From Mesodorylaimus sp. YZB2_4 (taxonomy: Eukaryota > Nematoda > Enoplea > Dorylaimida > Dorylaimidae): 64,000 nucleotides of DNA. Under the pieces are notes generated by a model. That model saw nothing but the letters and a program-made list of their open reading frames with translations. It had not been told where the DNA came from and searched no databases. Below, piece after piece: positions 1 through 51,194 of this stretch. Numbering within the stretch: position 1 is the first letter of the stretch; each line of letters begins with the position of its first letter. Made by a program: the position numbers and the translations under genes. The stretch covers positions 62,001-126,000 of the forward strand of contig JASANH010000514.1 of assembly GCA_030248295.1 (NCBI GenBank), read 5' to 3'.

Positions 1-48
1 TGTCAGAGGTAGAAAGAAAACGCAATATTTGGGACAAAGCTGACTTGA
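1..48 (+). pseudogene. 3' tail of an MSWQPP-family copy, cut by window edge
   Basis: These 16 codons align with the last 16 codons of the copy at 4820-5008, sharing AIFGTK near the end and the same TGA position. A TAG stands where the full copy has CGG, so either the protein was shorter or the copy is dead. Similarity to the 3' flank of the 4820 copy continues to about position 270. The N-terminal motif lies outside the window. Confidence 0.55.
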
Positions 49-269
49 AATCAAGATGCTGTGACTTTGACATGGTTAGATTGCTTAAGGATGAGCGCTG
101 CTTTTATAGTGCCCCTAGTTTATGGTTGTTAATATACGGTTTATGGTGCTGGTTACTGCGAGTCATCCATCGTATTAGTGTTTTGATCATTTAGATGGCG
201 CAGTCGCGGTTCGGCTTTTGTAATTTGGAACGTGAACTCGTTCTTTGAGATTAAAACGTATACTTTGTG

Positions 270-1476
270 TGAAATCACACTGTACTGTGATTGCCTGTCT
301 AAAATTATGCACTGCTGGGCATGCAATCTCTTGCGGCTCTGTGCTCGATTGTGTCTAGCTATCCACTGCCCCGCTGCAGTATCCGCGGCTAACTAAAATA
401 TTGCGATCCCGCAATAAATGTCCTGGTGTATTTCTCTTCCATCTGAACCTCACGTGCCTCAATTCTTGCATCTACTGAAACCACACATTTTTCGAAATTT
501 GGATTTTTCCTGGCAGTAATCTTGCAATCGTGCATTCCACCTGAAGGCCCTTGACCGCAACTGGCCTAACGTGTGAGCCCAAGCCCTTGTTTAGCAAATA
601 ACTAAAACTGAATGCCTTATTATTAGCGCTCGTTCTAGAATAGGGCTATTCAGCAAGTGAGATTAAAGCAGTCCCTGAAAATTCTTCTTGCGCTTTTGCA
701 GCACATGTACAGTACGACGTAAAATGAAGAAATCAACAGACTCACCGACGTGACACAATAGCTTTTAAAAATTCAGAACACATCAAATCAAGTCTCGTCT
801 CGTTGGTTAGACCATACGGAACTTGTTGCAAAAACTAGCGACAAGCACATATAGCAGAGGCTAAATATAAGCACACGTAAGCCCTTTTGTATGAGTATTT
901 CTTTGAACCCGTGAACCCGTAGATAGCTAGAAAAAACGTTGTGTTCGGGCGTGCTGCACTGTAATCGTACAGTAGATATACTTCCAGTCATACTGTTACG
1001 GTAAGCTGGTGGGTGGAGCCAAACAGAAAAAACAATATGGCTGCCAGCGATTCCTGTAACCATTAATAAAGCAAGGCTGGCCAGAAAATTTGTGTTTATC
1101 GCCTCTCATATATTCGTGCAACTTTTGTATGACCGGTTTCACATTCAGACTTCACAATTATCAATATTACGACTACTGACGAGTGACCAACATCCATGTT
1201 ATTATTACACAAGCAAACAATTCATTGAGCAGCCACTGTTCATTACCACAATGATGTTGATTCGTTAAAAACCTGTTTGATTGCCATTATTCTTTATTTC
1301 CAAGACTAATGTCGACCTAAATCGAAACCCCATACAAAGTTCATTCTTCTGTGCTAATGCTTACTGCACTGCATATACAGTACATTATTATAATCTGGGT
1401 TGGCCTGCGTCAGTCCTGATCATTTTGGCGTTAGCGGTGTGGCCGACAACCTGACAGCTTTTTTTAGGTAGCCGAA
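270..1476. other. Non-coding stretch; partly duplicated at 52.0-53.0 kb
   Basis: No credible gene is seen. From about 950 to 1300 the sequence is a diverged direct copy of about 52000-52250, and the last 60 bases before the ATG at 1477 resemble the flank at 52930-52990. The upstream region was therefore duplicated together with the cysteine-rich gene. Confidence 0.5.
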
Positions 1477-2068
1477 ATGAAAGCAAAAATATACCTGGCC
1501 CTATTTCTAATCACTTTGTTCCTACCTTTCGTTCTTGCGGCCAGCCTAAGTACTCGTAGTTTCAGCGGAGCGAACTTCCAACCGATGGAGAAATCTCGTT
1601 GCGCAAGCAAAAATCCTTGCCCCTGTAAGTCAGTATAACAACATATTCCCTGATTCCTTCCTTACCTCATCATCAGCTCAACCCGCCCCCCCCCCAGGCC
1701 ATGAAAAATTCAGCTTAAATCTGTCATTTATAATTGATGCAGCAAACGACGTAGGAGCTCATCAATCCGCTTACAAATCCCTTCCCTGAGGCATAGGACC
1801 AATGCATGATCTCCTTTTAGACTTTGGAAGTTTCACAATTTCTGGCACCAATTGCGGCTACATGCCTGACAATGGGCCTTCTGCGAGTGTATCAGCCAGT
1901 GCCTATGGACTGCAAGCCGCAGGTTTCTCGGCTGGGATATTCAACGAGCTTCGCTGTCCTAAGGGATCGTATTGTTATTGCGGCACCTGTTGTACTGATC
2001 CTGTCCTTAGAAACTACGCGTACAAAAAACCACGTCAATCCACCGTCAATGACACTGTTGCTACGTGA
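1477..2068 (+). CDS. Small secreted cysteine-rich protein, two exons
   Basis: The family is not recognised. Exon 1 (1477-1624) encodes a clear signal peptide: KAKIY, then a hydrophobic core to about residue 21. It ends in phase 1 at a GTAAGT donor. Exon 2 (1821-2068) follows a pyrimidine-rich TTTTAG acceptor and restores the frame, giving 131 residues. Eight cysteines remain in the mature chain, ending in a tight cluster RCPKGSYCYCGTCC, which could make four disulfides. An AATAAA lies at 2164-2169, 96 bases past the stop. A decayed relative lies at 52990-53581, and conservation of both signal peptide and cluster supports this model. An extracellular or venom/defence-like role would be a guess from the cysteine pattern only. 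Confidence 0.7.
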
Positions 2069-2163
2069 CGATGTGCGAAAGCGCAAGGTGGCTCCGCAAT
2101 GTGGTGCGCAGTATGTTACTGTGTATTGGACGCTGTATTTTCAGTACGGTTCAAATCTCGAAG

Positions 2164-2169
2164 AATAAA
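2164..2169 (+). terminator. AATAAA polyadenylation signal
   Basis: Canonical hexamer in the expected place downstream of the stop at 2068. Confidence 0.5.
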
Positions 2170-4819: not shown

Positions 4820-5008
4820 ATGTCGTGGCAACCACCTTGCGAGGATCTCTTGTCCACTGTAGTGATGACAAGAGAAAATTTGGAAATCATGGTTTCTATC
4901 TCAACGTTCAGTGAGGAGCGACTGATGATGGAGCGGATGGTGACGCTCGATCAAGGGATGCGTCACAGGCGGAATGAAAAAGCGATATTTGGGACAAAAA
5001 TGACATGA
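4820..5008 (+). CDS. MSWQPP-family small protein, copy 1
   Basis: Intronless ORF of 62 residues and unknown function. Residues 1-16 carry the family motif MSWQPPCEDLL followed by a hydrophobic VV. The rest is charged, with SIS, EER, a methionine-rich stretch, then HRRNEK. There is no signal peptide or membrane segment, so a cytosolic or nuclear product is expected. Its C-terminal half aligns best with the 17060 copy (SIS...ER...EK) and with the fragment at the window start, and its 3' flank is duplicated at 1-270. The ATG is fixed by the motif itself, which starts at the same residue in every copy. Confidence 0.75.
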   Translation: MSWQPPCEDLLSTVVMTRENLEIMVSISTFSEERLMMERMVTLDQGMRHRRNEKAIFGTKMT

Positions 5009-6336: not shown

Positions 6337-6525
6337 ATGTCTTGGCAACCTCCCGGTGAAGATATCATGTCTTCAGTCTTGATAACGAAGTGGAGAAGAC
6401 CTGATTTGTGCACAGTGACTGGGGAAATATCGCATTCGGCGCATTCACGTGAGTGCAGCGCAAGATACACGAAGTTATTGTCGTCTTCTTTCCAGACCGT
6501 CGAAATGCCGAATCCAAGCTTATGA
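6337..6525 (+). CDS. MSWQPP-family small protein, copy 2 (subgroup B)
   Basis: Intronless, 62 residues. It begins MSWQPPGEDIMSSVLI and then reads RRPDL, TGE, REC, SSSFQ and ends NPSL. It groups with the copies at 21546 and 24041 on three points: Gly at position 7, Met at position 11, and PDL/E/S/RE spacing in the tail. The codons TCT, CCT, CCC and GAA replace the TCG, CCA and GAG of subgroup A while the peptide is kept, which argues that it is translated. In place of TATAAA the -55 region has CATAATCCAAGCT, shared in variant form by the other subgroup B copies. Function unknown. Confidence 0.72.
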   Translation: MSWQPPGEDIMSSVLITKWRRPDLCTVTGEISHSAHSRECSARYTKLLSSSFQTVEMPNPSL

Positions 6526-7886: not shown

Positions 7887-7976
7887 TTATGTAGCCTTCA
7901 CAGCTAGTATTTCCCGTAACTTTTGCGACATTAGAACAGTGGCCAGGAGATCCTCGGACGGTGGTTGCCACGACAT
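7887..7976 (-). pseudogene. MSWQPP-family copy 3, truncated
   Basis: The ATG at 7976 opens MSWQPPSEDLLATVLMSQ, nearly identical to the 32902 copy, but a TAA ends the frame after 29 codons, just after AVK. The intact paralogue continues with SISREEG. The TATA position reads TTTGTAAG in place of TTATAAAG, so both promoter and ORF look decayed. The upstream blocks are still present (8104-8135 and 8258-8289). It forms a head-to-head pair with the copy at 9677, mirrored by the pair at 30777 and 32902. A functional short form cannot be excluded. Confidence 0.6.
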
Positions 7977-9500
7977 CGCGTCAAGGAAGCGGCTGGTAAT
8001 TAGCTAACTTGCCTCAAAGTAAGCCTTACAAAGCAGTTTTTCAGGTAAACGAGCTTTTGGTTTTCAAACAAATGTTAATATGTACGGTACATAAATGCCA
8101 GCACTGCGTGAATCTTGAATCTTTTATGCTGATCACGTTTCTCTTCCTGTGAAAGCGAACATGCCTGTCGCCCTGTTTTCTAAAAGGTTTCATAGCCGCA
8201 ACCTACGGTAGGTTCTTAAAATTGTCCTGATTTCCGAGTAAGCTAAAACGGACAGGTGATGTTGACAAGGTGTTTATCGAAAGGTCACGTTAGAATGCCT
8301 CAACCTTCCTGCTTTTATTACGCTTTTTACAACGAGCTGAAAACGCACTTATTTTATTCCATGACTGTAGATATACGTCTCTCATCTCTCTCGGATCCTA
8401 AAATTAAAGTTTTCCACAGCAAGCGATTAACCAGTACTATGAGCTACTGGGCTCACGCTCACACTGTAGTGGCAGAACTAGCTGCTTTACCTGCAGAGCT
8501 TGATACATTTCTAATTAACATCATAGGACATACCTCACCTCTGCATGGCATCGTGACAGTTTGGACGTTTGACACGGCGTATTGACCAATTAAAGGATAA
8601 TTTGCGGGTGCATCAGAAACCTGCAGGTGCTCCTTTGTTTGCCAGCATGTTCTCGTTTTAGGCCGTGCGGAAGGTCTATTTTGTAGGGTGCATCCCTGTC
8701 CATACACTCTGCAGGGTGCCATAGTTGGCGCGGTGTAGCTCGATGTTCTACGTCAGACATGAGACATCCAGTTTGTTACTACATCAGTTCCAAAGTGTGC
8801 AATATATTAAACACGTACTAAAAATCAATCAAACTAAAAATGACGATAATCACTAATAAGATTATACTTATAAGACTTGGTGCGCTTTATTTGTCACAAG
8901 CGGAACAGTCCCAGCATGTTATTGCTACGCATAAAATCATGAATGTAAGCTATTGTGTGAAATGGAAATGTAAATTCACTTTATGCGACTACATTGCACA
9001 TCTGTCTCCCTAACATACACCACGCACAGTTACCGGTACTTCAGTACAATTCTATTCATACTCCTGCTCCTCTGAACCACAGCAAGTTTGTTCATCCTGC
9101 AGACCAACGCGAGAGGATTGAAGTCAAGTACGCATGCCTTTGGCTGTTGTTACAAGGCACAGATAGTTCATGGGTCATCCATACCTCTTCTCTTCTAGCA
9201 ACAATCAGTCACCTCAATAAAGAGCGGCAGGCGATTATCCCTACTATTCACGAGTTTGTTGCACCTTCGGGTCACATGAACTATATGATCATGATCGTTT
9301 CGTGCCTAAGGCATGCACTAAACCTAAAGCCAGTCGACTCTATTGTTGCAGTGTCCGGACCAGCGGGTTCATGATCAACATCAAATCTAAACTGGCATTT
9401 TAGAATAATCTATTCGACCGGGCAAAATGGATGCTGAGGTCACTTTCAAATTAGCGATTGTCTAGCACTAATCAGCTGCCCCTTTTAAAAACATCTTATT
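7977..9500. other. Region between divergent copies 3 and 4
   Basis: No other gene is supported. It holds the promoter blocks of copy 3 and an inverted unit at about 8530-8660, also found at 10430-10690, 29920-30030 and 31710-31970. It also holds the second copy of the 7.1 kb direct repeat. Confidence 0.5.
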
Positions 9501-9514
9501 CCACAGGAAATGAA

Positions 9515-9627
9515 GCATGACCAGCAAAGAAGGTTCACGCAGCAATGACGCACTTGCCTGATGGGATATACAAAATTTTTGTTTTCCCATCAGCGACAGA
9601 TCATCTCTTCTAAGATTGCTATATAAA
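9515..9627 (+). promoter_or_regulatory. Promoter of MSWQPP copy 4
   Basis: TATAAA at 9622-9627 lies about 50 bases before the ATG. The conserved GCATGACCAGCAAAG...TTCACGCAG block is at 9515-9542. Both recur in mirror image before the 30777 copy. Confidence 0.6.
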
Positions 9628-9676: not shown

Positions 9677-9865
9677 ATGTCGTGGCAGCCACCGTGCGAG
9701 GATCTCCTGGCCGCTGTTTTAATGACGAACAAACCAAAAAACATTCTGGTCGTGGCGTCTGAATCAAGACAAGAAAGGGTACCGATGGCGTGGACGCTGG
9801 TTGGAAGAACGGACTCTAAGACGACTGGGAAAAACAGCTTCTCACAATTTGCCCAGATAAACTGA
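9677..9865 (+). CDS. MSWQPP-family small protein, copy 4
   Basis: Intronless, 62 residues, starting MSWQPPCEDLLAAVLM. The tail contains ESRQER, a TLVG turn, then polar residues ending SQFAQIN. It is the near-identical partner of the 30589-30777 copy: the two differ at only a few residues and lie in opposite arms of the inverted duplication. In-frame codons extend upstream without a Met, so the ATG at the family motif is the start. No targeting signal is visible and the function is unknown. That two duplicated copies both keep the full frame suggests the product is retained. Confidence 0.77.
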   Translation: MSWQPPCEDLLAAVLMTNKPKNILVVASESRQERVPMAWTLVGRTDSKTTGKNSFSQFAQIN

Positions 9866-12598
9866 AGAGAATGGGTGCCTTTGTACGTAGTTTGCCTCTG
9901 ATCATGTGCAGATCATTCGTCAGACGCAAAGCATGCGTTTTCTGTGTGTCGACCTGTAACAATTTTTTAAAATGATTCGAATGTTGCATCCCCTTTTGTG
10001 CTCTGTGTTCCATGTTCAGTCCGATGATAATAATTGTGACGCAAACATAAAAAATCGTAACATCGATATGCTTTACTCCTGTATAGATGACCATTCCATA
10101 ATTCCTGAGGTGCCCCATCCACCAATGTGAAAAATGAAACAACACGCTGCAATACTTTAAAAGTATATTTTAACCCTGGGAATAATCTTTTCAAATTCCT
10201 GTTACAGAAGCCTAATCTATGATTGCTGAAAATTGCTGTGAAACACTGAAAAACATGGCAATCAAGCAATTGGTCACGTGTTGAGATTTTTGTCCCTCCT
10301 GAAAAAGTACACACATGAAGGCGATAGGGGGTACATAGTATACTATTGCCCGTATACGACGTGTCAAACCAAACACGCCACCTCGCCCAGGCTAAGCACC
10401 CTGCAGGGTAGCTCATGATCAAGGTCTAAAACGAGAACATGCTGGCACCATAGAAAGCTGCGGGAATCTGCCGCACCCGTAAAAGTAGCACTTACTTGGT
10501 CGAATACGCCGTGCTAAGTCAGAAGTCAAAACAGCCGTGGTGACTTGCTGTGTTTTACAATATTAATTAGACATTCCTCGCGCAATGCTTTTAAGGCAGC
10601 TGATTTGCCAGTATCATTGAACAATACCTCAGCAGGTCAGATAGTAAATCGCCAATCGTGCTAGAAGCCTTATTTTAGAACTCCATAGTAGTAGTAAATA
10701 ATCGTAAATTTCAAACAGCCTACTTTTACTGTGCGTTACTACGCACGTGGTACTGAACATAGAATACGGCTTTTCGAATTTCGCTTAAAATTACCAGAAC
10801 CATGAAAGATACCGCAAACAAATGAAATAGGGATTATTGTTCATCGAACTCTGGTCTCGTAGCATTTTTATCTCCAAACAGACGGAAATTTTTCGGCCCT
10901 TCGGTAGATTGACGGGGTTTATAAGTTTTACGTAAAGGGGGAATTATAGGGTGCGCCTAATCTAAAAAAACAGTAACGGCTTGGCAGCAATGTCATTGGT
11001 TTATGATAACCAGGCTATTTTAGGCACGTACCCAGTAGCTGCCTTGGGGACCGGAGAATGGAACTAACATTACTCGTCCGAACGCATTACATGCGTTTGC
11101 TGTAAGCGGGCAAAAGTTATGATTGTCCTTGTGGGTTTGATAATAGCCATCCCAAATATCCCAACAAATCCACTGAATTGCCCTCAAAATGTCGGACGTC
11201 AGCACCGGTAATTTGACTCATGACCTAGTCGCATTGATGTTGACTATTCAGATTTCTCATCCCAAGATTATCCCAAGTGGCAATTTTGGGGATTCCATGT
11301 GTCATAAACTCCCCCAAATCCCACATAGGACTAATCGTGAACCATCCCAAAACCTCGCCCTGTCCTAGGTGCTAACCTGGTGTCATGTACGCATCAGTAG
11401 TGTGCATACTTGCCAGGTCATAATTTACGGCCGGATAGGATCAGATCCCATCCGTTCGGATCGGTTCATTCGGTCCGCGTTATCCGATCCGAAGTTCCAA
11501 GCCAATGGTGTTCAGATAACCGCAGGCAAACAACTATTAAAACTTTTCCCGATCCCCTCTGTAGTATAATGAATTAGATGAGATCAATATTGCGCATTGA
11601 TACTTTTCCCTGCTCACAAATAGAGACACGAGTCATCTTGTCGTTATTATTAACTATTTGAGACCGTAGAAAACATGGATGACTCAGATTTTGCAAATAG
11701 TTTGGAGTTAGTTAACAGAATTATTATTATTATATAAGCACATGCTTCACTGATTGAAACGAGCTAGCAGACTAATTGCCTCATATGTTGACTGTGAAGC
11801 CACTAAACCGAGTGCTGAAATAATAGGGCCATTGCTGGTGGTGCTATAGTCGGGGACATCACTGCCAAGTGTCACGAGTTACTGTCCTTGCAGGTACTCT
11901 ACAGACTAGAGCCTCGCTTGTTCCTTAGTGCGATCCCCAGGATTCTGTTTTCTATCATGTTCAGGACACACTTTTAAAATATAGAACGGTTCCTGGTTGG
12001 GTTGGCTTATTTCAGTCCTCACGGGGGGCTTCCCGGTTCTAAACGGGGCCATCAGATACGTAAGTTCCCGTCAAAAGCACGCGCAGGCCTTCACTAGTAT
12101 TTAGGCCTTTACTGTAGGCATTTTTGTCAGTGATAACAAAAGGTTGACAAGGAAGAGAGAAATGGCGTCAAGAATAAAAAATGTCTGCTCAATCAAAAAT
12201 CTAATGTCGAAACGGAACAACAGTTTTACTTGAGGTTGATATACCCGTATTCAGGGTTCTCTAAATTTTTATATGCGCCCGACCAGAGTTCATAGATGAC
12301 GGAGTAAAAGCAAGAATTTACGGCATGGTCACTGAAAGTACGCTATAACACAGCTAGATAAGTGAAGTCCTCGTGTCGTGGCTCGTGATTCGTGGTTCCT
12401 GCTTTCTAATAAAGGGTCCTAGAGAGAACTGTAGTAGTGAGAGAGTTAAGCCCAGAACCACCTTTGTGCGAGTGTTTATCTCAACAGACACATGCAGAGT
12501 ACAGGCGAAGGCTCATAGGAAAGATGTAGCAGGAGAAAGTGGAAAGGGTTTGCGGGTGGCAGAAGAGTCAAAAATGTTTCTTAGAAGAAAAGCATAAA
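9866..12598. other. Non-coding stretch
   Basis: No supported gene. The inverted-duplication arm continues to about 10690. An AAAATGTCGGACGTCAGC block at about 11187 recurs exactly near 27853. A GATCGG-rich patch lies near 11430-11510. Confidence 0.5.
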
Positions 12599-14452
12599 AT
12601 GGAATTCGAAAATCGCTACATTACGAGGCAAGTAGTCTGTGCAGCTATGATGAGCATCAATATGTACTATAAGAGGAGAAGTGGGAGAATACTCAGAGTT
12701 TGTCTGAGTTTTGTGCTGTTTTTGCTCGCGCAGATTGTATCTTCCCAGGACAAGATCGATGGCCCCATTCACTCCCTTCCACACCATCCCGTGATCACAC
12801 CTGATCGAGCCACGACCAAGGTACGGATCGTCTACGATGGCTCTGCCAAGACAAGAAATCAACCGCGCAGCCTGAACGAATGCCTGTACAGGGGACCAGT
12901 CATTCTAGACGACTTGGCCCAACTGCTGCTGCGCTTCCGGATGAACAAGGTGGCGCTGATCGCGGACATCGAGAAAGCATTCTTACAAGTCGGACTCCAA
13001 CCCGTATCAAGGGACGTCACGCGATTTCTTTGGCTCAAGAACCCCAAGAATCCAAGTGTCGAGGGCAACTTGCAAATCTATCGCTTCAAACGAGTGCCAT
13101 TCGGCGTAATATCAAGCCCGTTCCTGCTCGGGGCAACTATCAAGCACCGCCTGCAACTCTGTGGCGGTTCGGTAGCGAAGGAAATACAAGAACACATATA
13201 TGTAGACAACATGATCACAGGCGTGCAATCAACAGCTGATGCAATCGATTTCTATCAAATCGCAAAGAAGCTTTTCGATGAAGTATCAATGAATCTGCGA
13301 GAGTGGAACTCAAATGATCAAGAATTACTCAAAGCGATTCCAGAAGTGGACCGAGCAAAAGCGGCTCAAACGAAGGTCTTGGGCATCAAGTGGGACACTG
13401 GTTCTGACGTGATCTCGATCAACCATGCAGGGCCTGTCATCGAAGGTGAGCCTACAAAGCAGTCGGTACTCAGCTTCATTCATAAGGCCTTCGATCTTCT
13501 TGGCCTCATGTGCCCAGTAATGGTCAATGTCCCCCACTCCTTTCAAAGTCTATGGACGACAGATCTCAAATGGGATGATCAATTAACGAAATCCAACAAA
13601 GACAAATTGGATCAGATTCGAACAGAAATCAATGGCCTCAATCAATTCAAGTTAACGAGGTACCTAGGCAGCGGCCATGGACTGTATCAACTTCATGTCT
13701 TTTACGATGCATCAGAAAAGGCGTATGGGGCGGGCGTATATTTGCAATCTCAAACAGGCAAACCAAACCTCGTTTTTGCAAAGAGTCGGATGAAACCGAA
13801 GCGAGCAGACCAGTGGAAGGCGAAGGAACCGACAATTCCACGACTCGAACTGTTGGCAGCACATATTGGAGCGAAGATCCTCACCTTTGTCCGTGATGGA
13901 CTACAGGTTCAAATCGAAAGCACCTTCATGTGGATCGATTCCCAATGCGTCCTCCGGTGGCTTCAATCAAACAAGCAGCTTCAGACATTCGAGGCAAACC
14001 GAGTCGTCAAATACATTACAAGCATCAAGTCCATTAAATTTCACTATGTTACCAAGGAGGAAAATCCAGCCGATCTCCTGTCCAGAGGGACAGCGGCCAT
14101 GACTCTCAAAGACAAGTCAATATGGAGGCATGGACTGCAGTGGCTACGCCAGGCTGAAAAAACGTGGCCCGTGGTAGACGGATTCACGTTTGACCAGGAA
14201 GATATCAACAAAGGCAACATCGAGCCTCCCACAATTTATACAGCAACGACTAATTTCGCGGCGGAGGGTTCAGACGAGGTCAGCCGAATCTTTGTTGAAA
14301 GTCGATACTCAAGTTGGAGGAAACTGATACGTATCACCATCCTTTGCATGCGATTTGTGGCCAAGGTGAGGGGGAAGAGACGATCCTGCAGCAAAGCAGG
14401 CGAATTGGAACCATCGACGCCAGAAGAGATCGATATGGCGGAGAACTTATGA
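12599..14452 (+). CDS. BEL/Pao pol fragment: reverse transcriptase and RNase H
   Basis: From about 12760 the frame encodes the BEL/Pao RT: LPHHPV, KVRIVYDGSAKT, LNECLYRGP, IADIEKAFLQV, VPFGVISSPFLL and YVDNMITG. The polymerase box reads YVDN, where most RTs have YVDD; as I recall, BEL elements often carry N. It then continues into the DUF1759-type region (WDTGSD, FDLLG) and RNase H (FYDASEKAYGAG, PRLELLAA, WIDSQCVLRWL, NPADLLSRG). The first 50 residues are not pol: they include a hydrophobic, signal-peptide-like stretch (VCLSFVLFLLAQIVSSQ) fused directly before the RT. The frame ends at 14452, before the integrase. Confidence 0.85.
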   Translation: MEFENRYITRQVVCAAMMSINMYYKRRSGRILRVCLSFVLFLLAQIVSSQDKIDGPIHSLPHHPVITPDRATTKVRIVYDGSAKTRNQPRSLNECLYRGPVILDDLAQLLLRFRMNKVALIADIEKAFLQVGLQPVSRDVTRFLWLKNPKNPSVEGNLQIYRFKRVPFGVISSPFLLGATIKHRLQLCGGSVAKEIQEHIYVDNMITGVQSTADAIDFYQIAKKLFDEVSMNLREWNSNDQELLKAIPEVDRAKAAQTKVLGIKWDTGSDVISINHAGPVIEGEPTKQSVLSFIHKAFDLLGLMCPVMVNVPHSFQSLWTTDLKWDDQLTKSNKDKLDQIRTEINGLNQFKLTRYLGSGHGLYQLHVFYDASEKAYGAGVYLQSQTGKPNLVFAKSRMKPKRADQWKAKEPTIPRLELLAAHIGAKILTFVRDGLQVQIESTFMWIDSQCVLRWLQSNKQLQTFEANRVVKYITSIKSIKFHYVTKEENPADLLSRGTAAMTLKDKSIWRHGLQWLRQAEKTWPVVDGFTFDQEDINKGNIEPPTIYTATTNFAAEGSDEVSRIFVESRYSSWRKLIRITILCMRFVAKVRGKRRSCSKAGELEPSTPEEIDMAENL

Positions 14453-17059: not shown

Positions 17060-17248
17060 ATGTCGTGGCAGCCACCTTGCGAGGATCTCCTGACCACAAT
17101 GGTAATCGCAAGAGAAAATAAGGGAATCATGGCTTCTATCTCGATGTCAGGCCAGGAACGACTACGAACGGAATGGATGGCGCAATTGGATCCATGGCTG
17201 TGTCAACGGCGCCAAGAAAAGTTATTATTGCAGGCGAATTCACAATAA
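17060..17248 (+). CDS. MSWQPP-family small protein, copy 5
   Basis: Intronless, 62 residues, starting MSWQPPCEDLLTTMVI. The tail has SISMSGQER, EWM, QLD and QRRQEKLL, which aligns across its full length with the 4820 copy and partly with the 32902 copy. The tail could form an amphipathic helix rich in Gln and Arg. The longer in-frame ORF upstream (from 16940) lies over the promoter blocks, so the motif ATG after the TATA box is preferred. Function unknown. Confidence 0.76.
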   Translation: MSWQPPCEDLLTTMVIARENKGIMASISMSGQERLRTEWMAQLDPWLCQRRQEKLLLQANSQ

Positions 17249-20299: not shown

Positions 20300-20455
20300 A
20301 AGATCGCGTAACTCGTCATCGACTAGCAACGGGTTACGGCGTCTGCCTCTCACGCTGGGTGCGCACTTACAGGGAAAGGCTCGACTCCCGCCTCGGTACA
20401 AGATGATTGTCAAATATGTGTTCCTAGCCCTCGAGTGCTCTATATATTGCGTGGC
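20300..20455 (+). repeat. tRNA-derived SINE copy
   Basis: It contains GGCGTCTGCCTCTCACG, a B-box-like GGCTCGACTC, and the family tail ending CCCTCGAGTGC. It is diverged from the copies at 26299 and 63656. Confidence 0.55.
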
Positions 20456-21545: not shown

Positions 21546-21737
21546 ATGTCTTGGCAACCTCCTGGCGAAGATATGATGGCTTTGATTTCTAAAGCAAAAA
21601 TGAGCCCTGATTTGAGTTTGACGACCGAAGAAACGTCAAGCTCGACGCAATTGCGTGAATTCAACATCACCACGAGATGCGTTATTGTCGCCAGCTGTCA
21701 AGATTGCCTGAAAGATAAAAACCCAAACACCTGCTAA
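21546..21737 (+). CDS. MSWQPP-family small protein, copy 6 (subgroup B)
   Basis: Intronless, 63 residues, starting MSWQPPGEDMMALISKAK. The tail carries PDLSLTTEE, REF, a short hydrophobic VIVAS, and CQDC near the end. It aligns with copy 2 in the order PDL, TxE, S-rich, RE, S.Q, NP. The -50 region reads TTATTATGATCCGAGCTT, the subgroup B variant of the TATA zone. Two cysteines near the C-terminus are particular to this copy. Function unknown. Confidence 0.72.
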   Translation: MSWQPPGEDMMALISKAKMSPDLSLTTEETSSSTQLREFNITTRCVIVASCQDCLKDKNPNTC

Positions 21738-24040: not shown

Positions 24041-24250
24041 ATGTCTTGGCAACTCCCTGGCGAAGATGTGATGGCTTCGGTCTTGAAAATATGTAAAGCT
24101 CCAATATTTGAGAATTTGCTCGCAGTGAAAGAAGATACCAATTTCAGTCCAGTTGACCTCGCTCAACTGCATGGGCGCGAATTTTCGACGCAGGTGCATC
24201 ACCCACAAAGTAAAGAATCCAAGCTGCAGCTATCGAAGATAGTGCACTGA
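24041..24250 (+). CDS. MSWQPP-family small protein, copy 7 (subgroup B)
   Basis: Intronless, 69 residues, starting MSWQLPGEDVMASVL; Pro5 of the motif is Leu here. The tail holds AVKEDTNFSP, HGREF, then SKESKLQLSK. The REF and following Ser/Gln positions match subgroup B, and the -55 region reads AAATGATCCGAGGCT as in copy 6. It is the most diverged subgroup B member and slightly longer. Function unknown. Confidence 0.68.
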   Translation: MSWQLPGEDVMASVLKICKAPIFENLLAVKEDTNFSPVDLAQLHGREFSTQVHHPQSKESKLQLSKIVH

Positions 24251-25748: not shown

Positions 25749-26298
25749 AACAGCGACCTGGGGAGGATCGATCGGGTGATGTGATTTCACCACAGTGAAC
25801 TTACTGGATGGATATTATGCGCCTGAGCAGCTACCCATGCCCTGTGCAGGATCCTGGTGCAAGCTTCTAGCTTCCGCTGCTGGTCATCCCGACCCCTTGG
25901 TCAGTTTATGCTGGGTTGTCTGCTGAAGAGACGGCTGGACGTGGACCGTACACTCGATATGTGGGATCTCAGTCCCACTATATGTCGATTTTATTGTATA
26001 AGGATCACGTGCCATGTGGAGTCACTATCATCCGCTGTTTGGGGGAGGGGTAAGCTGACAGCATCGGTCACTCGGGTTTAGTACAGCCCTAATAGTTTGA
26101 CACTGATATTGAAAAGTCAAATTGTAACCCGGGCGCCTGGTGGGCAAAAACCTGGCGTTTCTACCTCTGGCAGTGTGTTCATACCTCACCAATGACCCAT
26201 GCCTGTAGTGACGGAGCAAAAAAGAGACCTCATTCGGCGAATGCCATCTGTTTTCTCTGGGTTTGTGCGGGGCCGTTTAGTGCAAGTGGCCTCCCACT

Positions 26299-26462
26299 GG
26301 CCTCGTGGCCTGGTGGGTCAGGCGTCTGCCTCTCACGCCAGGTGCGCACTTACAAGCGAGTGTTCGACTTGCGGGCCGGTAAATCATTTCGAGTAAAATG
26401 TGTCCCTGGACCCTTGAGTGCGCACAAGCGTTTGATGACGTGGTTAAACATGAAACATGAAG
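26299..26462 (+). repeat. tRNA-derived SINE, near-complete copy
   Basis: The head has GGCCTGGTGGGTCAGGCG (A-box zone) and GAGTGTTCGACTTGCGGGCC (B-box zone). The tail reads AAAATGTGTCCC...GAGTGCGCACAAGCGTTTGATGACG and ends in short ACATGAA repeats. It matches 63656-63820 throughout. Confidence 0.75.
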
Positions 26463-27539: not shown

Positions 27540-27728
27540 TTAGCTTGCACTCTGAGTGTGCGTCCAGTTACCTGGTTCTGGGCCCATTGTTACGCCGGTC
27601 GGATGGTTCAATGACAGCCATTCTGCTTCTTTATTCGGTATGAAATAGTCAAGGAGCAGCAGCTCTCCTAGTTTTCGTGTAATCAACACACAGACCATCA
27701 GATCCTCGGACGGTGGCTGCCACGACAT
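27540..27728 (-). CDS. MSWQPP-family small protein, copy 8
   Basis: Intronless, 62 residues, starting MSWQPPSEDLMVCVLITRK. A leucine-rich GELLLLDYF follows, then NHPTG and a Trp-containing end. The ITRK join resembles the ITRQ of the copy at 51194, and Met11 is shared with that copy and with 34117. An AATCTATATCC sequence lies at about -55, in the TATA position. Function unknown. Confidence 0.72.
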   Translation of the reverse strand: MSWQPPSEDLMVCVLITRKLGELLLLDYFIPNKEAEWLSLNHPTGVTMGPEPGNWTHTQSAS

Positions 27729-30588: not shown

Positions 30589-30777
30589 TCAGTTTATCTG
30601 GGCAAATTGTGAGAAGCTGCTTTTCCCGTTCGTCTTAGAGTCCGTTCTTCCAACCAGCGTCCACTCCATCGATACCCTTTCTTGTCTTGATTCAGACGCC
30701 ACGGCCAGAATGTCCTTTGGTTTGTTCATCATTAAAACAGTGGCCAGGAGATCCTCGCACGGCGGCTGCCACGACAT
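30589..30777 (-). CDS. MSWQPP-family small protein, copy 9
   Basis: Intronless, 62 residues, starting MSWQPPCEDLLATVLM, with ESRQER, TLVGRTDSK and the SQFAQIN ending shared with the 9677 copy. It lies in the second arm of the inverted duplication and faces away from copy 10, as copy 3 faces away from copy 4. TTTATA at 30828-30833 is the mirror-image TATA box, about 51 bases upstream. Few residues differ from copy 4 and no stop has arisen, which suggests the duplication is fairly recent or the product is under constraint. Confidence 0.77.
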   Translation of the reverse strand: MSWQPPCEDLLATVLMMNKPKDILAVASESRQERVSMEWTLVGRTDSKTNGKSSFSQFAQIN

Positions 30778-32901
30778 CACGCTTCGGGGCAAATATGCAG
30801 GTAATGAGAGCTCGTTTGAATCCAGCTTTATACAGCAATCTTAGAGCATATGATCTGTCGCTGATTTGATATCCCATCAGGCAAGTGCGTCATTGCTGCG
30901 TGAACCTTCTTTGCTGGTCATGCTTCATTTCCTGTGGAATAAGATGTTTTTAAAAGGGGCAGCTGATTAGTGCTAGACAATCGCTAATTTGAAAGTGACC
31001 TCAGCATCCATTTGGCCAGTTGAATAGATTCTTCTAAAATGCCAGTTTAGATTTGATGTTGATCATGAACCCGCTGGTCTGCAACAATAGAGTCGACTGA
31101 TCTTAAAGATTTAGTGCATGCCTTAGGTACCTTATGATCACGATCAAAGCTCGTGTGACCCGCAAATAATGGGTGCAATCGCACCCGGCGCTTCGCGATT
31201 TGACTAGAAGATCAGAGGCATGGATTGATGACCCAGGAACTATCTGTATTCTGTGCCGCTAAAACAACCAAAGATATGCGTGCTCGACTCTGATTCTCTC
31301 GCGTTTGTCTGCAGGATGGACACAGCTGCTGTATTCCAAGAACATAGGCTACAATACAATTGCACTGCTGTATGAGTGTAGGTTAAGGGAAACAGATACT
31401 GTATGTGCCAACAGTGAATAGAACATTCGAACATTGGGTGCGTCGATACAATAAAGGCAAGGATTATTGCATGTAATGTATAAGTAGTGCATATTCTGGT
31501 AATATTCTGCTTGTCAAAAAATGTACAGTATCAGAGCACAAAATGTTTAACTAATGTGTTGTTATCATGTTTAGTTTTAAGAGTGCTATCGAGTGTTAAC
31601 CGTGATAGTAAGAAACTGGATGGTCGCACATCTCTTAAACTGAAAGGTCTCACGTCCCACCGAAAACATTAAGCACCTTGATTAGGCCAAACACCCAACA
31701 GGACTTCTTCAAGGGCTAAAACGTAAAATGCTGGCAAACAAAGGAGCTGCATGTATCTGCCGCACCCTAAAGGAAGCCCCTAATTGGTCAACGCCGTGCT
31801 AAACGTCCAAATTGTCACGATGCCATGCAGTGCTTCTGTATGTCCTATGATGTTAATTAGATATTTATCCATCTCTGATAGCACCTAGAGCAGATGATTG
31901 GGTCACTATAAGCAATGCCCAGCAGGCGATGTAGTAAATCGCTAAGCGTCGAAGCTTTTATTTTAGGGCCCGAGAGGGATAGGAGTAATGTCTTCTTTAC
32001 AACGCATTACATCAAGAGCGCTTACTGTAAACGGACACGGTTTTCAGAATCGGAAGATTATCACAAATGACAGGTCAATATAAGAATGCATGACCTTTAT
32101 TCTATCGACTACCGCATGCAATCCTCAAGTTTCGTAATCCCCTTTATGAATTTATGACTAAGCAACCAAGGATTAATATCCTACACCTCTAATAGTTTCG
32201 ATTTGGCCCAACTTTAAATAATAAAATCTGGGGAAAATATTTCAGTTTTTTTTAAGAGATCATGTTTTCAAACAACAGGTACGAGTACGTCACCGCTTCA
32301 CACACAATGCTACACTTCAAGCCAAAACTATTGTTCACTGCGCCATATCTTTGTAAAGAATGTCTGTTCGAGACATACCCGAGCCAGCTCTGCGTTCTGG
32401 CTACCGATGCTCTAGCTGATGCACTACAGTAGCTACCAAGTGCCAATACATGCTGTCACATTTGGTATTTCAACACCTGCCACAAACAGGACGCTCTTCA
32501 GCAGTCGTGGAATATGTAAGTTCACTATAATTTTACGTACCTATCTGTTAAAAGCGTAATAAAAGCAGGAAGGTCGAAGCATGCTAACGTGACCTTTCGA
32601 TAACATCTAATCAACATCTGGGCACGTTTTAGCTTACTCGATTAGATGGGGACAAATCAAGAACTCACGGTGGATCAGTTATTAGGTATGAAGCCTAGCA
32701 GGTATGTTTTCAAAGGATCCATCGCTCGGGCAGGAAGGCAAACATGACCAACATAAAAGATTCACGCAGTGCCGACATAAAAGGTCATGAGATATTAACA
32801 TTTGTTTGAAAAGAAAAAGCTCGTTTACTTAAAAAAAAGAGCCTTATAAAGCTACTTTAAGGCAAGCTAGCTCATTACCTACTTGACTCTTTTGACTGCC
32901 G
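30778..32901. other. Region between divergent copies 9 and 10
   Basis: Inverted counterpart of 7977-9676. It keeps the 31240-31300 block, the 31710-31970 unit and the promoter blocks of copy 10 (32589-32619, 32743-32769). It is about 420 bases longer than the other arm. No other gene. Confidence 0.5.
32845..32850 (+). promoter_or_regulatory. TATA box of MSWQPP copy 10
   Basis: TATAAA, 52 bases before the ATG at 32902, in the sequence CCTTATAAAGC. Confidence 0.6.
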
Positions 32902-33093
32902 ATGTCGTGGCAACCACCGTCCGAGGATCTCCTGGCCACTGTCCTAATGTCGCAAAAACAAAAGGAAATACGAGCTGTGAAGTCTATATCAAGAGAAGAA
33001 GGTGTATCGGCGGAATGGATGTCGAAATTGGAACTAACAAATCTAAGGATAAGACGATTGGAGAAGAAGATATCTGGGTATCACTTCAAATGA
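32902..33093 (+). CDS. MSWQPP-family small protein, copy 10
   Basis: Intronless, 63 residues, starting MSWQPPSEDLLATVLMSQKQKEI. The tail has SISREEG, EWMSKLE and RIRRLEKK and is strongly basic towards the end. It is the intact partner of truncated copy 3. Its tail aligns with copies 1 and 5 (SIS, E.W/M.., RR.EK), which defines subgroup A. An overlapping frame starting at 32883 covers the same bases but keeps no conserved peptide between copies. Function unknown; the basic C-terminus could bind nucleic acid or membrane, which is speculation. Confidence 0.76.
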   Translation: MSWQPPSEDLLATVLMSQKQKEIRAVKSISREEGVSAEWMSKLELTNLRIRRLEKKISGYHFK

Positions 33094-34116: not shown

Positions 34117-34311
34117 ATGTCTTGGCAAACGCCCTGCGAAGACTTGATGGGCTCCGTGCTTGTCATGAAATGCCACCCTGCTTCACCGGTAGAAAAGTTG
34201 CCCTTGTTGCCGAAGGCCAAACAAGCGCCGTCTTTGCAAGAATCGTCATATCCCGTCGCTGATTCGAGAATGCTTCCTCCCCAAATGGACCTGCCCTATT
34301 ATCCGTGCTAA
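34117..34311 (+). CDS. MSWQPP-family small protein, copy 11
   Basis: Intronless, 64 residues, starting MSWQTPCEDLMGSVLVMK; Pro5 is Thr. The tail is proline-rich (HPASPVEKLPLLPKAK, then LPPQMDLPYYPC), unlike other copies, and probably disordered. GSVL after DLM is shared with the 51194 copy. Eleven codons upstream are open in frame, but the TATA-to-ATG spacing matches the family when the motif Met is used. Function unknown. Confidence 0.73.
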   Translation: MSWQTPCEDLMGSVLVMKCHPASPVEKLPLLPKAKQAPSLQESSYPVADSRMLPPQMDLPYYPC

Positions 34312-42400: not shown

Positions 42401-43373
42401 TACTCAGAAACTTACCCGGGAAAGGACAAACAGCACAGATAGCCAACTCGACAGCACATTGCAAAACACGTTCGAGCTGCAGTGTCACACGCCAGTCGTC
42501 AGCACCACTGGAGATCAGCGATATCTACAGCATGGCCAAACATTGTTTTTCCTCCTCGATAGAAGTTTCAAAAATCAAACATTACCTTCGCGGTCAGCCA
42601 ATGATACCGTACGATAAAACCCAGTAAAATGCAATTAGTCGACACAATAAACGATTTGATAAAATTTGAAGCGTAGTCACCCTAAAAATATGAAATTTCA
42701 GCGAAATGACTTATAATATTTCTAGTATTTTCGAGCAGCCGATCAGCTAGCGCAAGTCTTACACTGATTGGCACTTCAAGCGACGTCCCATTTTGGGATC
42801 TCAGATCAAATTCAACACAACTAACCAGCAAAAAATGCGTACCTTCGAAATAATTCTAGAAGCGCACAACTCCGATTCGACCACCGTCAATATAATGCCA
42901 ATCATGGCTAGGGCGACACTCCAATCGCAGGCTCTCATTCTTTTATGCATCAATTGCTTCCTCGTGTAATAGACATCATTGCCTTTCTTTTGCAATGCAT
43001 AAAAATTTTGCGGCCTAGCGACGCGCCTGCGCCGTAATGAAATATCGTTTTTCTTTTCTAGTCGATTCGATTTGCACTGCACAGTTTCATCGATCGTAAT
43101 TGCATCAATTTCGTTGCGGTCGCAAGGTGATCTTAGCAGACTTTCTCGTTCAATTTCGATGGTCGGATCAGATACAGCATTTGGTAACTGATCCATCAAC
43201 TCGTGCTCTTCAGCACTAGCCGTCATGGGCGATATGGGAGCGGAGCCATTCGATAGGAGCCATTTGTATTTGGGAGAATAACCCGAAACTTGCATAAATT
43301 GGTGACTGACGTCGTAAAGTGCATTGCAACTTTGATGATCAGACGACCTGACCAAACTCGATTCAATGTTCAT
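39418..43373 (-). CDS. SK-type calcium-activated potassium channel
   Basis: Seven exons join in frame to 558 residues: 43373-42843, 42681-42586, 42524-42055, 41763-41625, 41569-41459, 39804-39677 and 39619-39418, all GT-AG. Residues 150-170 are S1. Exon 2 holds S2 and exon 3 holds S3-S5, with GADDWR, the SVPMFLR S4 region and RSIAALN. Exon 4 has the pore helix and filter TSIGYGDL (GYGD about 391-394), and exon 5 has S6 and the MELTCAEKQVNNF linker. Exons 6-7 carry the calmodulin-binding domain (AAAILQHTWFIHRY, RIHQRKFLTAIH) and a C-terminal coiled coil. SK channels open when calmodulin bound to this region takes up calcium. The protein sits in the plasma membrane and damps excitability. The N-terminal 110 residues are not conserved. 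A further 5' exon cannot be excluded. Confidence 0.93.
40131..41277. repeat. TTCAGTT-rich repeat blocks in SK intron 5
   Basis: Intron 5 (41458-39805) is 1654 bases, against 55-291 for the other introns. It contains two blocks, about 40131-40200 and 41135-41277, built of degenerate TTCAGTT/GATTCAGTT units. Confidence 0.5.
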
Positions 43374-46757: not shown

Positions 46758-47195
46758 CTACTGATACATATTCTTCTGTTCCAACGACCATTGCACGATG
46801 TCGCCACTTTTCAGTTGGCGTGTATCGATTCCACACCGCGTGTCATTCCCGTTTACTTTCAGTTTCCAATAATGATTGGGCCCTGGCAAGATACCGTTGA
46901 TGCTGGTCACCATGTCCCCGTATGGTGCCACAAACAGTGTCTTGAATGTGAACTGTTGATTAGTTCCTTTTGTAGACGCCGCTAAATTCCGCATGGCCAA
47001 GCTGACTGTCATTTGAGGCACGTGAGGAGAATAGCCTTCATAAGAAGGGAGTAGGTTGTTGGCATTCTCGTTGGTTTTGATAAGAATAGTGACAAATTTG
47101 CCCTGAATTGTCTGGCCGCATCGATTATCGCAACTATATGCTGCAGGATGAAATGCATAAGAGAAGAGTAGGAGCGCGATGAATAGTGCAGCCAT
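46758..47195 (-). CDS. Secreted DUF4430-like protein
   Basis: Single-exon ORF of 145 residues with a signal peptide (AALFIALLLFSYAFHPAAYS). The mature part has a CDNRCGQ start, a middle beta-rich region (FKTLFVAPYGDMVTSINGI) and NHYWKLKVNG followed by LKSGDIVQWSLE. That last pair is typical of DUF4430, the domain also found at the C-terminus of cobalamin-binding transcobalamins. Stand-alone secreted DUF4430 proteins are known in invertebrates without assigned function. Three cysteines are visible after the signal peptide. It probably acts outside the cell, and the ligand is unknown. Confidence 0.75.
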   Translation of the reverse strand: MAALFIALLLFSYAFHPAAYSCDNRCGQTIQGKFVTILIKTNENANNLLPSYEGYSPHVPQMTVSLAMRNLAASTKGTNQQFTFKTLFVAPYGDMVTSINGILPGPNHYWKLKVNGNDTRCGIDTRQLKSGDIVQWSLEQKNMYQ

Positions 47196-48066
47196 TTTGT
47201 GACAGATTTCGATGGCTGATATTCATATGCGGGTGCATAGTACGTAGGACCTGTTTTATGAGGGTTGGAGCACTTACTCCCATCGCGAAAAACCAAAAGA
47301 AAAAAGTTTCTGCTGCGCCTCAACATTAAATCGACCCAAATTTCATGGCGTTCTGCTTAGTTTTCAGTCAAAACAGGCTCAGGCTGTTCCATCAATCCTA
47401 GCCTTATCTCTTGATCCCGACAGAAAGGCTTACGTCTGTAGAAAGTAGAGTGGGTGGGTAGCTAGGGGAATGCCATGGTGCTGTTATGGCTGACTGATGC
47501 TCGTGATCTTTAGGCTGCTCGAGTGTGTTGGTTGAGTGAATTAAAACAAAGGTATTGATCTCATGTAGAAATTGGAACACTGACTCACAGGCTGCCCTTC
47601 GAACGAAAGGGAAAAAATAAAGGTCTAAAGTATGAGAACATTCTTTTGGGCCAGTCCCACTGGGCATTTTTGCCTGATATCTGATGTATTTGTTTCAATG
47701 TCTTCTCACGCACGGCAAGAAATAAGGCATTTACTGTATTTTGCCGCAAACTTTATTTTACGCAATGTGTGTCACAGGTTAAACTGTGGGTCCGCTAGCA
47801 AGCGCCACTGACGGTAATAGTCGTGAGGTAAGCAACTGAAACAGTCGGTTTCGCTGTTAGCCATGCTAGGCAGTGTATCTGCATATTGGTAAAATATAGT
47901 TTCAGATCAGCGTTCCTAGGCTACTAACCAAAATTATGAGATGTTTGCCTAACAGATTTGGCTGCACTGTGTCAAATCACTTCACGCATGCTTCCATAGT
48001 TTATTGAAGCCGTCAGCGACAAAAATTAAAAGAATTCACGGCCTTGGCATCGCAACTGTTATTTAC
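47196..48066. other. Intergenic stretch
   Basis: No supported feature. An 87-codon frame at 47404-47667 (-) lacks any recognisable signal. Confidence 0.4.
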
Positions 48067-48401
48067 TTAGCCATACGTTCTTCCACGAAAGGCTTGCCGC
48101 CAGGGATTGGATTTGGCTGACGACGGACGTCCGTCCCCTTCGTCTTCACTAACAAGGATCACGTTTCCATTTTCATCGAATGAAAATGTTTGACTGTCTC
48201 CGGCCCACTTGGCCAGTACGTTACCTATAAGTGAGACTTTATAAAAACCCTAAAATGCATTTGGCACTTTGTCCATTTACCTCGTCCGCCACTTTGAGCT
48301 CTTATGGGTCCTCCGAACATTCGTTGGCCCGATGCCATGTTGAGGACTATGCAGACTAGGAGCAAAGAAAAAACGAATCCACAAGTTCCACTGCTTAGCA
48401 T
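48067..48401 (-). CDS. Small secreted orphan, two exons
   Basis: Exon 1 (48401-48281) encodes a signal peptide (GTCGFVFSLLLVCIVLNMASG) and a short GGPIRAQSGGRG segment, ending in phase 1 at GACGAG|GTAAAT. Exon 2 (48224-48067) follows a CTTATAG acceptor, keeps the frame, and adds AKWAGDSQTFSFDENGNVIL, an acidic EDEGDG, and a basic Trp-containing end (NPWRQAFRGRTYG). The protein is 92 residues and the intron 56 bases. No cysteine is left in the mature chain, so a disulfide-stabilised fold is unlikely. It could be a secreted peptide precursor or a small structural protein. No family recognised. Confidence 0.65.
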
Positions 48402-50975
48402 GATTGTCCACGACTCGACGACCAGACAGCAAATGTCAAACTAACTTCTCTTTTGGACACAATGTGTCTCTTACGTAGAGCGTGGGCAGAGTAAGTGAAC
48501 GGTGGAAAGCTACCAAGGCAGCACCATAGAGGCGCTACGGTTGAATAAGAAAGAGCTTTTTCGCCCAAGGAAACTTCGTTTTTGTATTATCTATGCACAA
48601 TTATAACACTGTGCGGCGCTTTTTGTCGAAACAGGTCAGCAGGGCGAGATGAGGCGACGTTCTGATCGATGCAAAGAAACCGAAGAACGAGAGACGAATT
48701 AAGAAAGAGGCTTCTTAGCTGCTTCAATTATTTATAATGGAAGATCAATGCACCCTTCGTCCCGATCAGCCTAATGTCCAGAACCTTGAGCCAGGCAGAC
48801 TGCCTAATCGGGACGATCTCCGGGTTGTCGGCTCGTGCCACATGACTGGATTCAACCTTGTGTGCCCATCCGTGGCTCCTATTTACCTAATCTTAACATA
48901 AGAAAAAGAAAAAGAAAAGCTCTGATACTTTTTATTAGCAAGATTGGAAAATGCCGACTCAAGTGAAAAAATTTTTTAAAAACTCTAATGAAAAATTGTT
49001 CCAAAAAGTTTTACGAGTACGGGTGCCAGGGTCGACCGTACCGACATTTTTAACTGTACCCGTACTGTACCGTAAACCAAAAACCATCTTAGCAGTTCAA
49101 ATTATCAAAGGGTGTTCCATAACGATAGCAACAGCCTTATGGCCTAAAGACAGAAACTGCAGCCTGGCAGGTCTCTAATTCAGGAACCAACTCCATGAAT
49201 GCTCGCATCCAAACTTCAGAAAGCAACTTTTGCTCAGCATCGAGTAGAATTCGTAAAACTTGGGCCAGAGTCTGCTTTACTTGAACGTGGATTATAAGGT
49301 GGTAACTTTTTAGAACTGCTGATCTCACAAATCATCACACAAAACATTATAAAAGTCGGGACGGCCGTTTTGGCCTACTTTTAGCGCCGTACCTGAACCG
49401 TGCCATATAACCCCCAGTACGGCGGTGCGTCGACCCTGTACCGTTAAGCGTTTTTTGTTCATCCAGCTAGCTATTGTTTTGAAAAGCGCCTTGAAAGTAT
49501 GAAAACCAGCACATGCGCGCCTTTAAAGGCAAACAAATTTGAGATGCATGGCTGGTGTGCGACATGAATAGTTGAAACTATTATTTCCACAGTAAATCGC
49601 GAGCTCGACATCGTATCTGGGAATTTACTCTCAATCAGTACAGCAATGCTAACGTTATTCACACTAATCACACCAAATACGCACTCAAATTTCCCTATCC
49701 TTCAAATGTTACACCTTCCAAAAAATCTGACCCGTATACGCCCCTGCTCTGTTGAGAGCTGTTCCATTATTTCTCTAACATTTGCTTATTTTCGATTCAT
49801 GTCCTTTTCTATTGAGTGCCAGCAGGCGCGATAAACATCATTCAATGCGAAGTTTTCGGTAGAAAGCGAACTCTGCTTGAAAATAGCGTTTGGTCACCGA
49901 AAGTTAAACTCATCAAATTGTTGGACTCAAAACAGCGCTCTATAATAAATCATTGACCTGTCTCTGAGCAGTTTAATTGCAGGCACACGAGGAAAAGATG
50001 AAGTGGTTCAAGGTCATATGGACTGCAGAGATAGATGGTTTTTATTGTGTCTATTGCGACTGACACGGCCTGTCGATCGGCGGAAAAGAAAATTTAGTTT
50101 TTTTGTATCGCTAGGTTTTTCGCCACAAGCTAGACTCCCTATAAACTAATTATCTAGTCTTAGATGATTGAGTCTTTGATAGATGATTATGATCAGATAA
50201 GAACCTAAAGGTCTAACCCGTCGATAGAACACTGATTTTCCGTGTTCCCAATACAAGAACGCTTTTGTGCTTTTTGCTTTGTATTCTTACTTCGCTAATA
50301 ATTTTTGCAGCCCCCCCCCCCCCCCGAATGTGGGTCTAACAATCTGATGTAAACGCTAGCTTTTTGAATAAAGAATGGGAAATTGTGTCAACTGCATCAA
50401 CTCTGGCACAGGAATATATAGCTTATCTTTCTAATGACTAGAGCACACAAGATACAAAAATTGAAAAACTGCAGCACTATTGTACGAGTCTTTGTACATT
50501 CAAGGTTTCATGCGCAACAATTGTAATTTCGGATGGGCTGATCAAGGCTATACGAGTAGCCAGTGGGCAATTGGGTGATCTGTTGGGAGAAGCGACCAGC
50601 GAGGGGTCCAAATGCTGCAGCACGCCCCATTAAGAAACATCACGAAAACTGCAATTGCCCTTGCTCTGATGCTCTGCGATAGGAAACGCCAGACATCCAG
50701 GCTAGGGACTATACATACATGCGGAATTCCAAGCCTCCTAAGGCCCTTTGTTTATAAGCGAGCTGGTTAGATGATTTTTCCGGGGAAACGTTGAGGAAAG
50801 AAGGAAGGCTAGGCTGCAAGAATATCACTCCATGTACAGCGTATAAAAATCACATAAAGTACAGATACAAGAATTCTGGCAGCGCTAATTTCATTGTCAC
50901 TGCACTGTCAAAAAATAAAGGCAAAGGATTGCACACAAAAACGACAAAGCCTTCCAACCAATGATTTAGTATGTC
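48402..50975. other. Non-coding stretch
   Basis: Holds an inverted-repeat element (49015-49447) and a C run at about 50311-50326. No gene is supported. Confidence 0.45.
49015..49447. mobile_element. Possible miniature inverted-repeat element
   Basis: AGGGTCGAC at 49028-49036 has its exact complement at 49429-49437. The flanks on both sides are made of GTAC/ACCG-rich sequence that also pairs imperfectly. No ORF of note lies between. Confidence 0.4.
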
Positions 50976-51194
50976 TTAGAACAAAGACTTGTCCAATTTT
51001 CCAGTTAAGTCTGACTTCGCTTCAATTGCGCGGCATTTTCTAATCATTTCGGGTCCATTATCTGACACTAGTTCCGCTGACGGTGGCTCTGTATTTATCA
51101 GGGGTGCCGCCCAGCCAACGAGCTCCAGTTTCGTTGGTTGCCGTGTGATCAGCACAGAGCCCATGGGATCCTCGCACGGTGGTTGCCAGGACAT
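50976..51194 (-). CDS. MSWQPP-family small protein, copy 12
   Basis: Intronless and the longest copy, 72 residues, starting MSWQPPCEDPMGSVLITRQ, with Leu10 replaced by Pro. The tail has VGWAAPLINTEPPSAE, then a charged stretch with MIRKCRAIEAK. It shares GSVL with copy 11 and ITR with copy 8, forming a loose third subgroup. A TTTTATA (TATAAAA on the coding strand) lies at 51248-51254, 54 bases upstream. It is isolated by 17 kb from the next copy, past three unrelated genes. The motif is kept with different silent codons (TCC for Ser2). Function unknown. Confidence 0.72.
   Translation of the reverse strand: MSWQPPCEDPMGSVLITRQPTKLELVGWAAPLINTEPPSAELVSDNGPEMIRKCRAIEAKSDLTGKLDKSLF

Follow-up and report, generated by a model that had tools for sequence, protein, structure and literature searches.

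Predicted very small protein genes with a common nine-residue N-terminus in the genome of the nematode Mesodorylaimus sp. YZB2_4

The question raised by a 64,000-base stretch of the genome of the nematode Mesodorylaimus sp. YZB2_4 (bases 62001-126000 of contig 262, in a genome of 145.1 Mb and 1067 contigs; hereafter the window) is whether a series of short open reading frames (ORFs), which begin with nearly the same peptide and then differ from each other, represents a family of real protein genes, and what the common beginning, or head, of these ORFs might be for. An earlier note on this DNA had claimed 12 such ORFs, and this number is borne out, as 12 heads of the form MSWQxPxED are found in the window (10 exact and two with one mismatch, viz. 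MSWQLPGED in the member at 24041 and MSWQTPCED in the member at 34117) compared with a mean of 0.01 in 100 shuffles. In the entire genome, the exact head ATGTCNTGGCARCCNCC is present at 20 places and at none in the reversed control; 11 of these are located on contig 262, where 10 fall in the window and one closely precedes it, and the remaining nine are on different contigs; when the pattern is lengthened by GARGAY again 20 places are found, which are identical to the first. With up to three mismatches, the head pattern has 41 places in the genome versus 4 in the control (20, 7, 5 and 9 with 0, 1, 2 and 3 mismatches, respectively), and the relaxed pattern MxWxxPxED has 33 places versus 1 in the reversed control. 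From these 33 places, 28 were read and kept as members, the one on C90 was dropped (ORF of 12 residues), and four were left unread. The 14 near-matches with two or three mismatches include four weak ones, with ORFs of 12, 33, 17 and 22 residues, one member of 77 residues, and nine that were left unread. A head in which the serine is encoded by AGY, searched with up to two mismatches, is found at seven places, each of which is an already known member with a TCN serine.

The constant part of these ORFs is a nine-residue peptide, MSW(Q/H)xPxED, at the very N-terminus. Residues M1, S2, W3, P6, E8 and D9 are the same in all 28 heads that were read, Q4 is found in 25 of them (H in the other three) and P5 in 23, residue 7 is free, and at residue 10 an L, V or I stands in 25. 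The head is thus shorter than the 15 residues suggested previously, its fixed part being about nine residues and the "xxxVL" extension being seen only in some window-type copies. When WQPPxED was searched in all of its codings (TGGCARCCNCCNNNNGARGAY), 20 places were found in the genome, which by their coordinates are the same 20 as the ATGTCN heads; because ATG-TCN directly precedes WQPPxED in 20/20 cases, the motif is locked to residues 3-9, and in its exact form, to which this test applied, it is not seen within any other reading frame. When the 28 heads are compared in pairs, differences are seen at the third positions (codons 2, 4, 5, 6, 8 and 9) in 1210 of 2268 comparisons, and at the first and second positions (codons 2-6, 8 and 9) in 152 of 5292, a number that is biased low because many first and second positions are fixed by the search patterns. 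However, the variation at third positions, and also the fall from 20 exact heads to few near-matches, are free of this bias. As the amino acids are kept although the third codon positions are free to change, the constraint is on the peptide and is not that of a DNA repeat.

These results bear on the possibility that the head is part of a non-coding DNA or RNA element (a piece of a promoter, a structured RNA or a transposon) in which the open frame is incidental. The flanks of the A- and B-subfamily window-type copies, including those on C10 and C173, are long and similar (approximately 70-85% identity), as would be expected of such an element, but the dispersed copies have only about 30 bases in common, the synonymous positions vary as described, the other reading frames close early (medians of 4 and 17 codons versus 52), and no Rfam family reaches its gathering score in the window, where the 3' stem-loop of replication-dependent histone-like small genes is accordingly also absent. 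This explanation is considered highly improbable, and a non-coding repeat without an open frame, which the earlier note had named as the contrary outcome, was checked by codon pattern and frame, was not seen, and is rejected.

The tails that follow the head are often similar in length and differ in sequence. At least 49 codons follow the head in 20 of the 22 first-collected members, and 49-54 codons in 15 of them, while of 40,000 positions picked at random in the window 11.5% are followed by 49 or more open codons and 2.25% by 49-54. For members on other contigs, 12/12 reach 49 codons and 6/12 are in the 49-54 range (2.25% expected for each); these 12 are the members outside subfamilies A and B, which have A-type relatives on C10 and C173 and a B-type one on C21, and one of the 12, L061, still has an open frame where its piece of sequence stops. 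Total lengths of 60-63 residues are seen in half of the 12. For the tails of ten dispersed members, similarity beyond that of shuffles (p<0.05) is found in only 1 of 45 pairs. When all 231 tail pairs are compared, 14 have p<0.005, and in most of these both tails belong to subfamily A or B. The 14 also include the pairs 34117/C672, 34117/21546, 6337/21546 and 51194/C50, so that traces of kinship do persist in some tails of other subfamilies and in one dispersed tail. In four intact pairs the ORFs have 0, 0, 1 and 1 gaps, compared with 3, 8, 5 and 12 gaps in the 350 bases upstream. The description of the tails as basic, proline-rich and cysteine-bearing did not hold, as in 22 members the net charge ranges from -4 to +4 (with one at +8), proline from 3 to 20% and cysteines from 0 to 5, so that no composition is a family trait. 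However, the central claim of the earlier note, that a fixed head is joined to differing tails in a real protein-level family, agrees with these observations, and a family of about 30 predicted very small protein genes, probably restricted to a lineage of nematodes, is strongly supported at the level of sequence. The genome in which it is found has 133 matches to the cuticle collagen N-domain PF01484, of which there are 0 in 14 control genomes, and these matches, together with arrays of TTAGGC, mark it as that of a nematode.

No known family had been recognised from this N-terminus in the earlier note. At an E-value of 0.01, 0/20 members match Pfam, and an earlier Pfam scan of nine members and P0001 (described below) returned chance-level matches only (best E 0.044, below cut-offs); a resemblance to the N-terminus of profilin likewise finds no support in a Pfam match and was discarded. 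A search of sequences in the PDB with a profile of 20 members (E 1), with P0001 (E 1) and with a 25-residue head query (E 10) gave no match. In a profile search of 5.8 billion proteins a single relative, P0001, was found at a weak E-value of 0.12, and it was the sole match to two further profiles, which already contained it. However, this 117-residue protein is 44% identical to the 112-residue member on C408 over 94% of the latter (pairwise E 6e-26), with shared blocks that include VPSVQFYSAPPSR and DSLSPY, and this full-length likeness indicates that conservation extends in its own right to at least one tail. Relatives elsewhere may have been missed, because members sharing only the head would score near the limit of the search, and this lineage may be poorly represented in the protein database. 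In the open-licence literature the string "MSWQPP" is found only in papers that by their titles concern Florida reefs and habitats, and "SWQPP" in papers that by title or start of abstract concern fibronectin, mycobacteria, reefs and the like; a search there for similar families returned nothing apt except a paper on the pea aphid (PMC7495047). As far as searched, the family is so far undescribed.

In terms of their anatomy, a TATA box is present at -76 to -45 in 14 of 27 scorable members compared with 14 of 902 control windows. In 1/20, the splice-acceptor core TTTYAG lies within 70 bases upstream of the ATG, and a GTRAG donor is absent from 18/20 ORFs (not significant against codon shuffles). 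The ORFs are apparently unspliced, and the earlier description of them as intronless is compatible with these observations. A different interpretation is that each ORF is only the first coding exon of a longer gene with introns, and that part of the visible tail is intron. In line with this, poly(A) signals after the stop codons are not enriched (5/20 versus 7/20 control stretches), due to which the 3' ends were not found. However, within subfamily A the mean identity, which is 75-93% between about -320 and the stop codon, drops to 60-64% in the 120 bases that follow, a total length near 62 residues recurs, the scarcity of donors points the same way to the limited extent stated, and the C408 member and P0001 align to approximately 7 and 13 residues from their ends. 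Based on these considerations, the first-exon interpretation is regarded as unlikely. The pattern for an SL1 spliced-leader gene is absent at up to one mismatch, and an Rfam covariance-model search for SL1 gave no match, but its controls likewise gave none. No promoter motif that all members share was found, as TGATCAACATCAAA occurs near -269 to -305 in 8/22 members with up to two mismatches, its carriers being subfamily A, part of B and one member of C, and with up to three mismatches it has 24 matches in the window.

What, then, might the head do? A role in docking, localisation or degradation, as put forward earlier, is plausible, and docking is favoured. Removal of methionine is expected before serine, and the exposed Ser-Trp-Gln-x-Pro-x-Glu-Asp end would then be the peptide through which all of these proteins dock to one conserved partner. 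The tails of about 50 residues would act as a spacer or make contacts specific to each gene, by which the individual proteins may adapt or compete at the same site of the partner. The N-terminus is not strongly hydrophobic: over 20 members, the highest 15-residue Kyte-Doolittle mean is 1.68, from residue 12, and this speaks, by hydropathy only, against a secretory signal. Small cytosolic or nuclear proteins that dock by their N-terminus would fit best, because the end is constant, the remainder gene-specific, the N-terminus hydrophilic and a match in Pfam or PDB lacking. That these are small, apparently unspliced and often TATA-bearing genes whose constant N-terminus docks to one conserved partner is given an even chance. 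The more specific proposal that MSWQPPxED is an end-locked docking tag, long kept on about 30 largely dissimilar micro-proteins with interchangeable tails and connecting them to one receptor, is put forward only tentatively, and we consider it rather unlikely as a whole.

The principal alternative is that the head is a signal for stability or localisation (a degron, or an address, that is recognised at the free N-terminus), with the tails as the acting cargo. The lock to residues 1-9 would suit a signal recognised at the end, and at least one tail is conserved between the two datasets. However, serine after methionine is normally a stable end, the head is hydrophilic, by hydropathy only, and in this regard unlike a secretory signal, and the tails lack a common charge or composition and mostly any similarity. 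This alternative is regarded as rather improbable, although it is the main rival.

Several observations weigh against the docking interpretation. The dN/dS values (ratios of nonsynonymous to synonymous substitution rates) of the tails are about 0.4-1.2 in 12 of 13 window-type pairs, one being saturated; as these values are at best moderately lower than 1, the window-type tails may be weakly constrained. Two copies, viz. the one that begins 132 bases before the window and the one at 7976 on the minus strand, look decayed, with frame-breaking gaps or early stops, and the copy on C173 has a one-base gap near its end. Further, 13/27 members fail the strict TATA test (two of these having a TATA-like site at -54 or -49), another ATG lies within 35 bases upstream in 6/22, and the lack of enrichment in poly(A) signals noted above belongs here as well.

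Some known systems may be compared with this family. Gene clustering, the absence of introns and divergence outside of a motif characterize the Bearded family of Drosophila, and in these respects it is like the apparently unspliced nematode genes. We know of no resemblance of the nematode head to Bearded proteins. The latter are small inhibitors of Neuralized that compete with its substrates via a short motif, according to PMC5693868 and PMC12678834; in the second of these the motif is given as NxxN. This motif is found in 2/22 nematode members, and the nematode motif, unlike it, is locked to the N-terminus; hence Bearded-type inhibitors may be regarded as the nearest working analogy for the nematode proteins and should not be interpreted as their relatives. 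The KQY/KHI cassette effectors of the pea aphid similarly have a conserved N-terminal coding part and a divergent rest, and form a small family whose genes are mostly scattered, but according to PMC7495047 their head is a secretory signal peptide and the one gene described in its abstract has 37 exons, whereas in the nematode the head is hydrophilic and splicing of the ORFs is not apparent.

A short Trp-x-Pro peptide is likewise found in the RAM or PhiWPhiP ligands of CSL (LIN-12, EBNA2, KyoT2 and RITA), and the nematode head could accordingly be a W-x-P plug in the style of the Notch pathway, for CSL/LAG-1 or a Groucho-type WD40 partner. W3 and P5 are present in most heads, and LIN-12 anchors to LAG-1 via VWMP (PMC5100865). 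However, the tetrapeptide PhiWPhiP, by which RAM-type CSL-binding peptides are defined (PMC6337844), occurs in 0/22 members, the residues flanking the tryptophan being serine and glutamine, and P5 is replaced in 5/28 heads. An identity as CSL ligands is therefore excluded by definition, since the hydrophobic positions around the tryptophan are lacking in all 22, and the plug explanation in general has very little probability.

Finding the partner could bring to light a new pocket for peptide recognition and, in a nematode, a new system of micro-proteins encoded by many genes. The nine-residue peptide, with its WQPPxED core only N-terminal genome-wide and its synonymous sites free, is a signature of selection in a small orphan family of a kind that is easily dismissed as annotation noise, and the combination of position lock and synonymous variation is suggested as a means of recognising genuine micro-proteins in raw genome sequence.

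Within the window, the members on the plus strand are located at 4820..5008 (62 residues, MSWQPPCEDLLSTVV, subfamily B), 6337..6525 (62, MSWQPPGEDIMSSVL, subfamily D, TATA not found), 9677..9865 (62, subfamily A, with TATATAAA starting at -57), 17060..17248 (62, subfamily B, TATAAG at -54), 21546..21737 (63, subfamily D), 24041..24250 (69, subfamily D, with the first of the variant heads), 32902..33093 (63, subfamily B, TATAAAGC at -57) and 34117..34311 (64, subfamily C, with the second variant head and TATAAAAG at -54). Those on the minus strand are at 7887..7976 (shortened to 29 residues), 27540..27728 (62, subfamily C), 30589..30777 (62, subfamily A, 87% identical to the member at 9677, TATAAAGC at -55) and 50976..51194 (72, subfamily C, TATAAAAC at -60). 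The length of about 62 residues stated previously does not hold for the member at 7976(-), which is probably decayed because its aligned partner at 32902 continues. The fragment noted at the window edge, 2..130 (+), is the 3' end portion of a further copy, which has its ATG 132 bases upstream of the first base of the window and a frame that closes after 17 codons.

Upstream of the member at 9677, a block at 9290..9620 (+), with TGATCAACATCAAA at -305, is common to it and its subfamily A relatives 30777(-), L002 and L007, and is likely a promoter. Its portion at 9370-9540, together with the corresponding portions in the relatives, is about 90% conserved, above the coding tail, and holds CAGCTG and TGACGCA. 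The spacer of the head-to-head pair 7976(-)/9677(+), at 8494..8667, is 80% like the matching spacer of the pair 30777(-)/32902(+), at 31704..31877, and the sharing of this spacer suggests that one pair block was duplicated. A Pao/BEL retrotransposon fragment with reverse transcriptase and Peptidase_A17 lies within the gene cluster at 12539-14452 (+). Around the members more generally, 20 ORFs from 13 of 15 10-kb loci were scanned, and their Pfam matches are unrelated, e.g. serpin, chemoreceptor, kinesin and bystin.

Five tandem repeats are present in the window, none within a member ORF and one about 80 bases before the member at 21546, and no tRNA genes were found in it by ARAGORN. An interspersed repeat of about 160 bases, at 26296-26454, 63653-63812 and in part 20313-20397, with two copies 87-88% alike, looks like a short interspersed element, in which ARAGORN likewise finds no tRNA. 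Other features of the window are ORFs at 42801-43373 (-) and 46758-47195 (-), with segments of an SK potassium channel and of DUF4430, a run of 27 G at 59595-59621, and an ORF at 62032-63387 (+) for a Core-2/I-branching beta-1,6-GlcNAc transferase, a relative of PDB entries 3otk and 2gak. In the genome, tetramers of TTAGGS have 986+958 matches, with pure TTAGGC in 5 of the 7 that were read by letter. Two TTAGGS arrays are found on C15, at 246076-246784 and 506545-506994, approximately 260 kb apart, and as both are in one contig at least one of them must be internal, representing either interstitial telomere-like repeats or an assembly join.

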